A DNA stretch of 64,000 bases from an uncultured Hyphomicrobiales bacterium (GTDB lineage Bacteria > Pseudomonadota > Alphaproteobacteria > Rhizobiales > Devosiaceae). Of this stretch, positions 41,949-45,939 are shown one piece after another. The notes under the pieces are model-generated. The model searched no databases and was not told the origin of the DNA. It was given only the letters and a program-made list of their open reading frames with translations. The position numbers and the translations under genes are program-made. The stretch is from positions 124,001-188,000 of the forward strand of contig CAIMLX010000205.1 in NCBI GenBank assembly GCA_903842455.1, in the 5' to 3' direction. Positions within the stretch are counted from its first letter, which is position 1. Every line of letters begins with the position of its first letter.

Positions 41949-42407
41949 ATGTCGCGCGAACTGACTGTGGGACAGGTGGCCGAGCGCAGCGGCCTCGCCG
42001 TTTCGGCGCTGCACTTTTACGAGAAGAAGGGGCTTATCCGCTCGCACCGCACGTCCGGCAACCAGCGGCGCTACGATCGCGACGTGCTGCGGCGCCTCGC
42101 CATCATCCGAATGGCGCAGGAACTGGGAATCCCGTTGAGCGAAGTTGCCGAAGCGCTGTCGCGCGTGCCGCTCGGTCATATCCCGAGCGCCGAGGATTGG
42201 CGAGGCATGTCGGCGGTCTGGTACGAAAAGCTCGATCGCCGCGTCACCATGCTCATCCGCATGCGCGATGAGCTCAACGGCTGCATCGGCTGCGGCTGCC
42301 TGTCCACCACCAGTTGTCCATTGATGAATGCCGGCGACCGGCTGGCCGACGAAGGCCCCGGCCCGCGCCGGCTGCTGCGGGAAGGCGGGGACACCTACCA
42401 GAGCTAG
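41949..42407 (+). CDS. soxR: Redox-sensing activator SoxR
   Basis: A MerR-family sensor with a 2Fe-2S cluster, 152 residues. The winged helix has [20 protein letters not shown] and then [11 protein letters not shown]. The cluster ligands are Cys112, 115, 117 and 123 in [12 protein letters not shown], the exact C-x2-C-x-C-x5-C spacing of SoxR. No soxS gene is nearby, as is normal outside enterics, where SoxR acts directly on exporters and oxidoreductases. The divergent MFS gene with a SoxR box is the obvious target. Confidence 0.96.
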
Positions 42408-42470
42408 GAGCCCGGAACCGCCGCGCGCGCTCCGCCGTTCTGGGGCAAAGCGTCAACACCGGAACTCCCC

Positions 42471-42971
42471 ATGGACCTGCTCGCCACGATTGGCCTCGAG
42501 GAAACCCACACACCGCTCCACATCATCCTGATCCGCCTGGTGATCGCCGCGGCCCTCGGCGCGCTGATCGGCCTCGAGCGTGGGTCCACCTCGGGGGTGG
42601 CGGGCCTCCGCACCCATATCCTGATCGCCCTTGCGGCGGCGCTCTTCACGACCCTCACCTTCGAAATCTACCACGCCTCGCTGGAGTTCAGCCCGCAGCA
42701 GGGGCCCGATCCGATCCGCGCTGTCGAGGCGGTGACGGCCGGCATCGCCTTCCTCGGCGCCGGCGCCATCTTCCAGCAGCGTGGCAGCGTGCAGGGGCTG
42801 ACCACGGGGGCGGGGATGTGGCTGGCGGGCGCCGTCGGCCTGTCGGCGGCGCTGGGCTTCTACATCATCGCCGCAGCAGCCGCCCTGCTGGCCGTGCTGG
42901 TGCTGGCCGCCATGCGGGGGTTCTCGCACAAGGTGGTCAGCAAGAACGATGCCCCGCCGGGCGGCGACTAG
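42471..42971 (+). CDS. MgtC/SapB-family membrane protein
   Basis: A 166-residue inner-membrane protein of the MgtC/SapB group, with about four to five helices. The signature LGALIGLERGSTSGVAGLRTHILIAL spans residues about 30-55, followed by TAGIAFLGAGAIFQQRGSVQGLTTGAGMW. It lacks the extra cytoplasmic domain of Salmonella MgtC. The family is linked to Mg2+ limitation and acid or host stress. The non-coding repeat-hairpin region starts just after its stop. Confidence 0.9.
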   Translation: MDLLATIGLEETHTPLHIILIRLVIAAALGALIGLERGSTSGVAGLRTHILIALAAALFTTLTFEIYHASLEFSPQQGPDPIRAVEAVTAGIAFLGAGAIFQQRGSVQGLTTGAGMWLAGAVGLSAALGFYIIAAAAALLAVLVLAAMRGFSHKVVSKNDAPPGGD

Positions 42972-43004
42972 CGATTGGCAAAAGAGAATTGTCTTCGGGC
43001 TGAC

Positions 43005-43482
43005 GAGCGCGGCCGCGGCCCGGGAGGTGGCCGCAACCGCGCTTTGCTCGCTTGCTCGGGTCCAGACACGCGAGCCGTCAGTCTAGCGGGGCGGAGCAGC
43101 GACAGGGCGCGCTCCGCCTCGGCAGTCTGGACCACCGCCCGTGGGGAGGGAACACGGGGGCAGTCCGCAGGGGGCCGGCAAACTTGGGGTGACCGGCCCG
43201 GCCATCCGGGAGCCGCAGGGAGTCGGCACCGGATGGATTCCAGAAAGAGTGGCACTGGATCGGCCGCCGCGGGAGGGAACGCGGCGGCCGGCCAGGCATC
43301 GGATCGGCGTACTTGGGGTGGCCGATCCGCCGTCCCGCCTCAGCTTGCCGCAGGGAGTCGGCGCGAGGCGGAATTCTTCGAAAATGATCGCCGGAGGCCG
43401 CTTGGGACAGCCTCCGGCGGGAGAAACGAGGAGCGCGCTTGGGAATGCAATCGGCAGTGGCCTGCCTAGAGCAACGCGCTCC
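43005..43482. ncRNA. Candidate structured RNA made of tandem hairpin modules (strand uncertain)
   Basis: A 541-bp gap between convergent genes that does not look coding on either strand. At least ten strong hairpins follow one another. A three-hairpin module occurs twice with a period of about 130 bases: stems 43138-43158, 43173-43198, 43203-43235, and again 43262-43289, 43301-43328, 43335-43371. The matching loops are GGGAGGGAA/GGAGGGAA, ones holding CTTGGGG, and CAGGGAGT (identical 16-mer GCCGCAGGGAGTCGGC at 43212 and 43347). Two more CTTGGG hairpins follow (43390-43418, 43430-43482). A 9-bp stem GGTCCAGAC/GTCTGGACC (43059-43133) and a hairpin at 43007-43042 precede. It matches no RNA I know (RNase P, tmRNA, SRP and 6S features are absent). 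Confidence 0.5.
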
Positions 43483-43487
43483 CCGTC

Positions 43488-43521
43488 GGCACGTAACCTG
43501 TGGACGCAGTAGTTACGTGCC
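43488..43521. terminator. 10-bp inverted repeat at the right edge of the hairpin region
   Basis: GGCACGTAAC (43488-43497) and GTTACGTGCC (43512-43521) are perfect arms around 14 bases. The right arm includes the stop codon of the receiver gene. There is no T-run on either strand, so it may end the receiver transcript weakly or bound the RNA region. Confidence 0.4.
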
Positions 43522-43959
43522 AACCGCTTCAAGGCGCTGATGACGCACCCAGAAACTCACGATCGCCGCAGCTTCGCGACGATAGAAATCGATATCCGCC
43601 TGACGCTCGAACACCGCATCGGCGCCCGCCTCGATCAGCACGTCGCGAACCTCGCGGTCGAGCGTCGGTGCCATGGCGGCAATCAGCAGGGCGGTGCCAT
43701 CGCGCATCCCCCGCAGCTTGCGGATGAAGTCGGCGGTGGCGGTGCTCGAGGACTTGAGGTCCACGATCACCAGGCCCGGCAGCGTGGCCTTGGGGTCATC
43801 CAGCAGCCGGTCCAGTTCGGTGCTCGCAACGGTCTCGCCGTCAAGCCAGTTGACCGACGGCGCGCCATGGGCGAGCAACATCCGGATCATCAGCCGGGCC
43901 GAATGAGAGTCGTCATCGACCAGCGCCATGAAGGGCTGGGCGGCACCATGCGAGTTCAT
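43513..43959 (-). CDS. Divergent stand-alone receiver domain protein
   Basis: A 148-residue protein with one response-regulator receiver fold and no output domain. The acidic pocket (FMALVDDDSHS) and the phospho-acceptor Asp (VIVDLKSSS) are kept. The Thr/Ser after beta-4 is replaced (LLIAAMAP) and the conserved Lys before the usual Pro is Arg (VFERQAD), so phosphorylation switching may be lost or altered. ATG 43959 is used, with AGGAAG about 5 bases upstream. It is transcribed away from the TPR protein gene. Confidence 0.7.
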   Translation of the reverse strand: MNSHGAAQPFMALVDDDSHSARLMIRMLLAHGAPSVNWLDGETVASTELDRLLDDPKATLPGLVIVDLKSSSTATADFIRKLRGMRDGTALLIAAMAPTLDREVRDVLIEAGADAVFERQADIDFYRREAAAIVSFWVRHQRLEAVGT

Positions 43960-44151
43960 AAAGCTTCCTTCTTGCCGCGCCGCGCGGCAATGGGCGAACC
44001 GACTGATACGTAGAACCCGTCGCGCACCGGGGACGAACCCGCGTCGTGGGTCACCGGGATCGATCCGGTCACCGGCACCATGCAGCGACGGGCCTGATAT
44101 GACGATCACATGACGAAGTTGAAAGGAACACCGGGGTAACGGTCGCGTAAC

Positions 44152-45939
44152 GTGACTTGCGTTTTACATGTAAATCAGGAACATCTTGGAACGTCTCATG
44201 GACGGGAGAACACCCTGACAGACCCCGCACAGCCCGACGCGCCAGTAACGGCAGCGCTCGAGCAATTGCTGAACTGGCCGGGTCTGTCGCGGTCGCCGCA
44301 ACTTGCCAAGTTTCTCAACTACATAGTGCGGGCTAAGCTTGGTGGCGACGAGGCCTCGATCAAGGCCTATTCCATCGCCGTGGACGTCTTCGGCCGGCCC
44401 CCTACCTTCGATCCGCAGAGCGATCCCATTGTCCGCGTGCAGGCGCGCCGCCTGCGTGCCGCGCTTGCGGAGTATTACGCGGGCGAAGGGAGCGACAGCC
44501 CGGTCAGAATCTACCTCCCCGTGGGACGATATATCCCGGAATTCCGTGGGCGTGACGACGCTGCAGCGCCCGAAGTGCCGATTCCGGAGCCGCCACGGGA
44601 ACCGGTTCCACAACTGCAGCTCCAGCGCTCCCGGCGCCGGATCAGCGGGGGCGCCGACTGGCTGCTCTACGGCATTCTCCTGCTCATCGGAACCGGGATC
44701 GTCTTCGCCCTGACCCAGGTGCTGATGCCCCGTCCGACGCGTATCGAAGTGCCCGGCTACCCGACGATCGGCATCGCCGAGTTCACCGTAATCTCGCCTG
44801 GGGCGAGGGAAGCGCCGGCATTGAACATTTCCGGCCTCGCCATCGAACTGGTGACCGACCTGCAGCTGTTCGACGACGTCCAGCCGACCTACACGCAGGG
44901 CGGCCCGCCCGAGGACGACGATCCGGACTACCAGCTGACCGGGATTGCGCGGCAGGAGGCGGGCCTCGTGCAGGTTACCGCCAGCCTCCGGCGCCGCGGC
45001 TCGGATACGGCCCTGTGGAGTTTGACGCAGACGGTTCGGGCGGATCAATTGCAGGGCAGCATCGACGATATCTCGCAGGCGTTTGCGGCGCAGCTCGGTT
45101 CGCACCGCGGGCCGCTGTTTTTCGACGCCTACAAGTGGCTGGAGGACAACCCCAGCATTGCCGGCAACGAGACGGTGTTCCTCTGCGGCCTGCTGTTCAG
45201 CCGCTACCGCGACAGCGCCGAGGTCGTCGACGCGGCGCGGGCGCGCGACTGCATTGCCTCGGTGCTGGCCCGCGGCGAGGACGCGCTGGCGCTGGCGATG
45301 CGCGGTGGGCTGCTGCTCGACGATGTGGCGGCAACGCAGCTTCGGATCGACCCCGAGCCGCTGGCCGAGGCGGAGCGCTTGCTCACGCAGGCCCTGAGGC
45401 TTGATGCGACCTCGAGCACCATCTGGCGCGAGTATGCCAGCTACCTGTCCTGGGCCGGGCGGTGGGGCGAGGCGGATGCGGCCTATGCCTCGGCGTTGCA
45501 GCTCAACCCGGCCAACCTCGATGCCGTGGCCGGCTTCGCGCGCATGCTGTCGGTCCGCGCCGCCTCGCTGCAGGGCATCGAACTGGCGGCTCGGGCCCTC
45601 AGGGGGACCGTCGATCCGCCGCACTGGTACAACATGGCGCCTGCCATCAATGCCCTGCGCGCCGGCAAGGACGAGGAGGCCATCGCCTTCGCCGAGAAGC
45701 TGGCGGAGGGTGATGCGGAGATGGGCGCGACGATCGCCACCGTTGCGGCGCTGCGATCCGCGGACGTCGATGTGCTGAACCGCTACTTTGCGCAGTTGCT
45801 CGACGTGACGCGCTTCCGCCGCTTCGGTATCCTGCCGGTGTTGCAGCAGCGCATTTTCGACTCGGCCCTCCTTGACGAGATCGCGGCGCAGCTCAAGCGG
45901 GCGGGCGTCGCCGATGCGGCGCTCGATGGTAATTTCTGA
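44152..45939 (+). CDS. Membrane-anchored TPR protein with conserved N-terminal domain
   Basis: Up to 595 residues. The N-terminus (FLNYIVRAKLGGDEASIKAY, then DPIVRVQARRLRAALAEYY) is a domain seen in rhizobial regulator- or cyclase-like proteins. One membrane helix lies near 170-192 (LLYGILLLIGTGIVFAL). The outside part has an FlgO/adenylate-cyclase-like strand region and TPR helices from about 380. The GTG at 44152 has no binding site and covers a palindrome; CTG 44215 has GGGAG 6 bases upstream and may be the true start, giving 574 residues. Function unknown. Confidence 0.7.
   Translation: MTCVLHVNQEHLGTSHGRENTLTDPAQPDAPVTAALEQLLNWPGLSRSPQLAKFLNYIVRAKLGGDEASIKAYSIAVDVFGRPPTFDPQSDPIVRVQARRLRAALAEYYAGEGSDSPVRIYLPVGRYIPEFRGRDDAAAPEVPIPEPPREPVPQLQLQRSRRRISGGADWLLYGILLLIGTGIVFALTQVLMPRPTRIEVPGYPTIGIAEFTVISPGAREAPALNISGLAIELVTDLQLFDDVQPTYTQGGPPEDDDPDYQLTGIARQEAGLVQVTASLRRRGSDTALWSLTQTVRADQLQGSIDDISQAFAAQLGSHRGPLFFDAYKWLEDNPSIAGNETVFLCGLLFSRYRDSAEVVDAARARDCIASVLARGEDALALAMRGGLLLDDVAATQLRIDPEPLAEAERLLTQALRLDATSSTIWREYASYLSWAGRWGEADAAYASALQLNPANLDAVAGFARMLSVRAASLQGIELAARALRGTVDPPHWYNMAPAINALRAGKDEEAIAFAEKLAEGDAEMGATIATVAALRSADVDVLNRYFAQLLDVTRFRRFGILPVLQQRIFDSALLDEIAAQLKRAGVADAALDGNF
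44163..44174. promoter_or_regulatory. 12-bp palindrome TTTACATGTAAA
   Basis: A perfect AT-rich palindrome in the gap between the divergent receiver and TPR genes. It lies inside the first codons of the longest TPR frame, which argues that translation begins further on. It may be an operator. Upstream at 44050-44080, GGTCACCGG occurs twice around GGATCGATCC. Confidence 0.35.

Follow-up and report, generated by a model that had tools for sequence, protein, structure and literature searches.

We analyzed a 64,000-nucleotide stretch of DNA (the window; positions 124,001 to 188,000 of contig CAIMLX010000205.1, assembly GCA_903842455.1) from an uncultured Hyphomicrobiales bacterium of the family Devosiaceae, and find that its minus strand folds into an array of twelve hairpins at 43521–43006 (base-pair span of at most 70), between a receiver-like gene and mgtC. 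Covariation supports a structured RNA whose structure Devosia and its relatives appear to have kept while its sequence changed. Comparison among genomes shows, at the level of sequence, which strand carries this RNA and how it folds; it also shows that C-rich motifs in single-stranded parts are conserved, that two hairpins (H1 with CGUCCA, H2 with UUCCCAA) form a basic unit, that a three-hairpin module occurs one to three times in the window's genus, and that the RNA persists without the receiver gene. As to function, we see an even chance that the array is a C-rich-loop anti-Shine-Dalgarno riboregulator, resembling ar14/NfeR1 or sX13 in its working and belonging to neither.

Structure, strand and repeats of the array

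Compared with dinucleotide shuffles of the same 576 nt, the folding energy lies at z -10.6 for the minus strand and z -4.8 for the plus strand, with 0/100 shuffles as low on either. A prediction made earlier from the letters of the window had placed an array of strong stems at 42972–43512. The array is real, and these bounds enclose it except at its start, where they cut off the beginning of H1: the RNA starts at 43521, inside the final codons of the receiver gene. Open reading frames traverse the array on both strands; covariation that retains G-U pairs, and the unequal length of the module copies, led us to set a coding reading aside.

The original prediction also described a three-hairpin module repeated at about 130-base spacing, with stems that change but still pair and loops that stay alike, and this description held up. 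A repeat finder returned 34-nt copies 129 apart (74% alike), 23-nt copies 127 apart (83%) and copies of the 16-nt GCCGCAGGGAGTCGGC 135 apart (100%). The module, hairpins A, B and C, occurs twice in the window. We compared 21 stem pairs between the copies: 7 outer pairs of A, 8 pairs of B and 6 inner pairs of C. Twelve are unchanged, 1 has a one-sided change, 8 have two-sided changes that keep pairing, and none is broken; this tally excludes the inner stem of A, which the two copies share unchanged, and the irregular outer part of C. The loop cores match as well: CUCCCUG is identical, CACCCCAAGU is identical over 10 nt and UUCCCUCC over 8 nt. The number of modules varies within the window's genus: four loci (L059, L064, L066 and L068) have one, the window has two and L067 has three.

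Covariation and strand were assessed mainly in three alignments. A2 covers H1-H2 in 69 of the 83 distinct 3' flanks drawn from 88 receiver loci (L071, the rows of genus g16 and L145–L147 were left out); A3 (41 sequences) and A4 (44 sequences, 37 of them receiver-bearing and 7 from the 10 receiver-less loci described below) were chosen from, and represent part of, the g15 clade, where a longer form of about 285 nt and six hairpins occurs. In A3, 19 of 35 pairs carry two-sided changes, and 0/500 shuffles are as high on all five measures; in A4, 63 of 87 pairs do so with 90.6% of cells paired, and 0/500 shuffles reach any of the five. When partners in A4 are slid out of register, 38–45% of cells pair. 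Parsimony on a tree of A4 counts 129 two-sided changes at 54 of the 87 pairs, against 9–20 changes at 6–13 pairs for slid partners. Over 97 matches of the H1-H2 unit, in an alignment fitted to the model, two-sided changes occur at 35/35 pairs. Together with an Rfam search of the window that returned no family at gathering score, this covariation across homologues supports the earlier proposal of a new structured RNA.

The strand was assigned from the balance of G-U and A-C cells. Read on the receiver strand, A4 holds 313 G-U against 86 A-C cells, whereas the opposite strand, when folded, holds 145 against 258; A2 on the receiver strand gives 252 against 56. These counts favor an RNA co-directional with the receiver gene, leftward in the window. 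The loops quoted in the original prediction give the plus-strand reading of an RNA that the counts place on the minus strand.

The receiver gene, its stop codon and the spread of the RNA

The gene whose 3' end the RNA overlaps encodes a receiver-like protein. A profile of 11 of its relatives matches a receiver protein of known structure (PDB 5tqj, E 5.5e-05), and PF00072 is found in 7 of the 11 (E up to 1, best 2.5e-06). The window's own protein scores just 12.9 bits with PF00072, for which the cut-off is 30.2. Its C-terminal end, FWVRxQxLxAVG, is nearly constant across the 11 relatives.

The H1-H2 unit was searched for in 94 of the collected loci, 73 of them receiver-bearing. In 66 of the 73 the unit starts before the stop codon (6 nt before it in 64 rows, 4 nt in 2), which places the stop codon in the left arm of H1; at the seventh pair of H1 the stop codon fixes U in the 64 rows. 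Eleven g15 genomes match R1, a covariance model of the first two hairpins built on 41 sequences, and have no listed receiver (E <= 1e-10). All ten of those we examined (G132 was left out) keep the RNA between both flanking genes, with no receiver match better than E 0.048, indicating that the RNA outlives the receiver gene. With the stop codon no longer needed, the seventh pair of H1 is usually stronger, being C-G in 8 of the 10. Where a stop codon lies inside a conserved stem and the gene is later lost, coding constraint and RNA constraint can be told apart. In the window and in all ten receiver-less loci mgtC lies convergent downstream; in L010 and L013 the mgtC match is found about 1.3–1.5 kb beyond the receiver end.

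Among named loci with a related receiver, 30 of 31 are labeled Devosia (family Devosiaceae, order Hyphomicrobiales) and one "Alphaproteobacteria bacterium". Devosia insulae DS-56 and Devosia riboflavina IFO13584 both have the receiver locus, and R1 appears to match on the same contigs. The receiver was found in 85 of 136 family genomes and R1 matches 84 of the 136, scoring 79.9 bits over 43521–43422 in the window itself. Among 397 genomes drawn from the order, R1 matches 12 and R2, a broader model (97 matches), 17, in both cases all within Devosiaceae; among 385 drawn from the class, R2 matches 1, the window's own genome. Searches of more than 40 genomes used strict filters, under which weak matches are lost, and the E-values of both models are rough.

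The H1-H2 unit also occurs apart from the receiver gene. Two genome searches gave at most two matches of it per genome, and three units stand close together in L178. Solo units lie behind LuxR-type genes in L169 and L172 (GerE 36.6 and 53.9 bits), with L173 alike by eye, and behind the gene of an AMP-binding enzyme in genus g10 (L174); tandem units occur in L146, L174 and L178. The L169 unit is a second copy in the window's own genome (G000:C32:2947–3032, 48 bits with R2), just after a small LuxR-type (GerE) gene. In genus g10, whose genomes are of about 2 Mb, two or three units stand close together (L174, L175, L178), with loop motifs much like the others, some slightly changed, at lower G+C (0.43–0.52 in most).

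Features of the array and its flanking genes, in window coordinates
Feature	Coordinates	Strand	Description
H1	43488–43521	-	GGCACGUAAC...GUUACGUGCC, apical CUGCGUCCACAG; receiver stop codon (43513–43515) in left arm; from fold and R1
H2	43425–43487	-	stem GGGGAGCGCG, side bulge with UUCCCAA, small apical stem; from fold and R1
H3	43389–43419	-	13-bp stem, apical GUCCCAAG, then AUCAUUUU; terminator-like in window
Module 1, hairpin A	43333–43373	-	apical CUCCCUG
Module 1, hairpin B	43300–43329	-	apical CACCCCAAGU
Module 1, hairpin C	43252–43297	-	apical UUCCCUCC
Module 2, hairpin A	43200–43241	-	apical CUCCCUG
Module 2, hairpin B	43172–43199	-	apical CACCCCAAGU
Module 2, hairpin C	43129–43166	-	apical UUCCCUCCC
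Hairpin D	43080–43128	-	loop CCCUGU; counterpart loops ACCUCCUGA in L059, ACCCUCCUGA in L064 and L066
Hairpin E	43046–43075	-	loop GACC
Hairpin F	43006–43043	-	loop ACCUCCCG
Receiver-like gene	43513–43959	-	148 aa; 3' end overlapped by the RNA
mgtC	42471–42971	+	convergent neighbor, outside the RNA; PF02308 108.8 bits
Large divergent gene	44152–45939	+	upstream of the receiver gene, synteny conserved, outside the RNA

By eye, hairpin F looks like H5 of the longer g15 form (loop ACCUCCC), and the two may be homologous. The T run that follows H3 is not seen at the corresponding place in L067. The large divergent gene has no Pfam match at 0.001, and no tRNA was found in the window. Near the start of the divergent gene stands a palindrome, TTTACATGTAAA (44163–44174), which is also present upstream in 6 of 7 aligned receiver-less loci (L182, L184–L187, L189) and is perhaps an operator. 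By eye, the alignment upstream of these seven loci contains no promoter common to all of them.

C-rich loops and competing explanations

CCC is held by 9 of 14 minus-strand loops (span of at most 70), as against 2.5 (sd 1.3) in shuffles, with 0/100 shuffles as high. Within A4 the majority is 100% at CGUCCA of H1 and UUCCCA of H2, 96% at ACCUCCC of H5, 91% at the apical motif of H6 and 82% at the loop of H3. C-rich unpaired motifs are thus both enriched and conserved, as would be seen in an anti-Shine-Dalgarno riboregulator. CACCUCC of hairpin F also occurs at the 3' end of 16S rRNA. The earlier suggestion that the leftward loops complement Shine-Dalgarno sequence agrees with these counts; pairing with targets is a prediction. 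Such an RNA would arise as the 3' untranslated portion of a message started at the receiver promoter, and would then be cut free. Its loops, among them ACCUCCCG, UCCCUCC and CCCCAAG, would base-pair at ribosome-binding sites rich in G and thereby keep target messages from being translated, and many similar loops could serve many targets or provide high capacity. A ribosome that terminates at the receiver stop codon, placed as it is in the left arm of H1, would be expected to melt this hairpin; whether the RNA folds or is processed could then depend on translation of the receiver.

Several observations weigh against this account, some of them against the RNA structure on which it builds. A promoter scan of 42400–44200 gave no sigma-70-type site, and the sole terminator-like site on the minus strand is H3, within the array. 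CGUCCA is a poor anti-Shine-Dalgarno sequence. It and UUCCCAA also stay constant at a set position in the structure, a pattern that protein recognition explains no less well than does pairing with ribosome-binding sites of differing sequence. In A4 unpaired columns are overall less conserved than paired ones (64% against 82%), constancy being confined to the motifs, and in the middle module of L067 hairpin C has lost its C-rich loop. Four of the small stems of A4 (helices 4, 5, 6-7 and 11, the tops of H2 and H6, H3 and H4) pair in just 69–82% of cells, and parsimony counts 296 changes involving a non-standard pair (561–625 for slid partners). Both A4, from which the counted structure was itself derived, and a further alignment, A5, fitted to R1, lean toward the structure, a bias that the slid-partner and tree controls lessen and do not remove. 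The short alignment A2 is less clear-cut on strand: folded for itself, the opposite strand there gives 169 G-U against 121 A-C cells. At E <= 0.05 the unit is missing from the stop codon in seven of the 73 receiver-bearing loci (L071, L138–L140, L145–L147), and 52 of the 136 family genomes lack an R1 match under strict filters.

The invariance of CGUCCA and UUCCCAA, held in a fixed frame over the 44 rows of A4, could also arise if a ribosomal protein or another RNA-binding protein docked on the hairpins; the array would then act as a sponge or scaffold in which these two motifs are recognized and length sets capacity. We think this possible, though distinctly less probable than not. Both motifs, some slightly altered, persist in the AT-richer g10 genomes, the unit stands solo behind LuxR-type genes and in tandem elsewhere, and the number of modules varies from one to three; set against this, the later hairpins share C-richness and not one fixed motif, there is no candidate protein, and CsrA has no match in the family. 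A related proposal, which we advance tentatively and consider unlikely, is that the H1-H2 unit (hexaloop CGUCCA, side bulge UUCCCAA) may be a new recognition module of the Devosia family for a protein or the ribosome, hung on the ends of regulator genes; with the stop codon in the first stem, termination would switch the module, and further hairpins would enlarge its capacity. Alternatively, the array could act only in cis, as a 3' element of the receiver message that provides stability, termination or insulation from the convergent mgtC and has no trans targets. Such a role would suit two observations: 66 of 73 receiver-bearing loci have their stop codon within the left arm of H1, and mgtC is convergent in the window and ten receiver-less loci. 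We nonetheless regard it as improbable: the RNA is kept in 10 of 10 examined loci with no receiver match, several loop motifs are more constant than the stems, solo units stand behind LuxR-type and AMP-binding-enzyme genes, and in L010 and L013 the mgtC match lies about 1.3–1.5 kb beyond the receiver end.

That the array is a diverged member of the ar14 (NfeR1, "cuckoo") small RNA (sRNA) family seems to us very unlikely. It shares the ar14 building plan, and the best Rfam match in the window is to ar14 (RF02344, minus strand 43378–43255, 26.1 bits, E 0.0071). This score is below the gathering score of 58.8, CCUCCUCCC occurs 0 times on either strand of 42965–43540, and the array's own genome has two ar14-like CUCCUCCUCCC-loop matches elsewhere; we rejected membership on these grounds. 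The original prediction had proposed that, read rightward, the array is a CsrA/RsmA sponge, and the plus strand does present GGGA in its loops, ANGGA five times and a fold at z -4.8. We give this hardly any credence: CsrA (PF02599, E <= 0.001) was found in 0 of 136 family genomes, own genome included, 119 of them at least 90% complete (a control search matched 3 of 14 named genomes), the G-U and A-C counts favor the minus strand, and GGA is in none of its 14 loops. Tandem copies of varying number and GC-rich palindromes are also what an intergenic repeat would show, that is, REP/BIME-like mobile DNA with no RNA function. We rejected a REP-like repeat on copy number (at most two unit matches per genome), and the fixed syntenic place and the two-sided, pair-keeping changes with G-U on one strand leave such an origin barely believable.

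Comparison with known RNA families

With the array, a genus of soil and rhizosphere bacteria gains a structured RNA family that comparison supports strongly and that has no gathering-level Rfam 15 match in the window; a limited search of the literature on Devosia and small RNA found no description of such an RNA. Arrays of unequal length offer a graded set in which to study why anti-Shine-Dalgarno loops are multiplied in bacteria. On seven homologous loci, Rfam gave one match up to E 1, to the microRNA family mir-7359, at 26 bits against a gathering score of 90, which we took as chance. The ar14 model matches 117 of 136 family genomes at E <= 0.01 and 5 of 136 above the cut-off, suggesting that the Rfam cut-off may miss ar14 members in this family. 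In the array's own genome, G000:C40:11930–12422 (L199) contains two ar14-like matches of 39.6 and 35.8 bits, below the RF02344 gathering score, with loops that carry CUCCUCCUCCC and CCUCCUCCC.

Tandem order and a C-rich motif are shared with CcsR1-4 of Rhodobacter sphaeroides, which lie 3' of a DUF1127 gene; ccaF1 belongs to DUF1127. The host gene of our array is instead receiver-like, and Pfam found no DUF1127 match among six scanned locus proteins. CcsR1-4 are made from a 3' untranslated region with involvement of RNase E, according to the part of the source used here (PMC8625941). In Caulobacter, SisA-D (aR8), whose sponge is CrfA, resemble the array in having a motif with an anti-Shine-Dalgarno signature, through which SisA-D repress messages; that alphaproteobacterial system has one core motif spread over four separate sRNAs, and the portion of the report drawn on describes no hairpin array (PMC12559287). 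PmaR of Agrobacterium likewise binds its targets through an accessible C-rich loop, but has a single such loop and, as far as the consulted part of its description goes, is confined to Agrobacterium and one Rhizobium strain (PMC6234868).

In sX13 of Xanthomonas (RF02232), C-rich loops at the tips of stable stems repress messages bearing G-rich motifs, as set out in the section consulted (PMC3771888); its model gives no homology to the array (13.5 bits, gathering 50, E 5.3), and its host belongs to another bacterial class. NfeR1/ar14 has three hairpins with the same anti-Shine-Dalgarno loop on diverged stems and silences messages by pairing, in the extract relied on here (PMC10746234). With ar14 (NfeR1, SmelA075), which is alphaproteobacterial, the array shares several hairpins with C-rich, anti-Shine-Dalgarno-like loops on diverged stems, to judge from excerpts of PMC10746234 and PMC3927594. 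It differs from ar14 in that its loop motif is not CCUCCUCCC, it has twelve hairpins rather than three, and it is joined to the end of a receiver gene.
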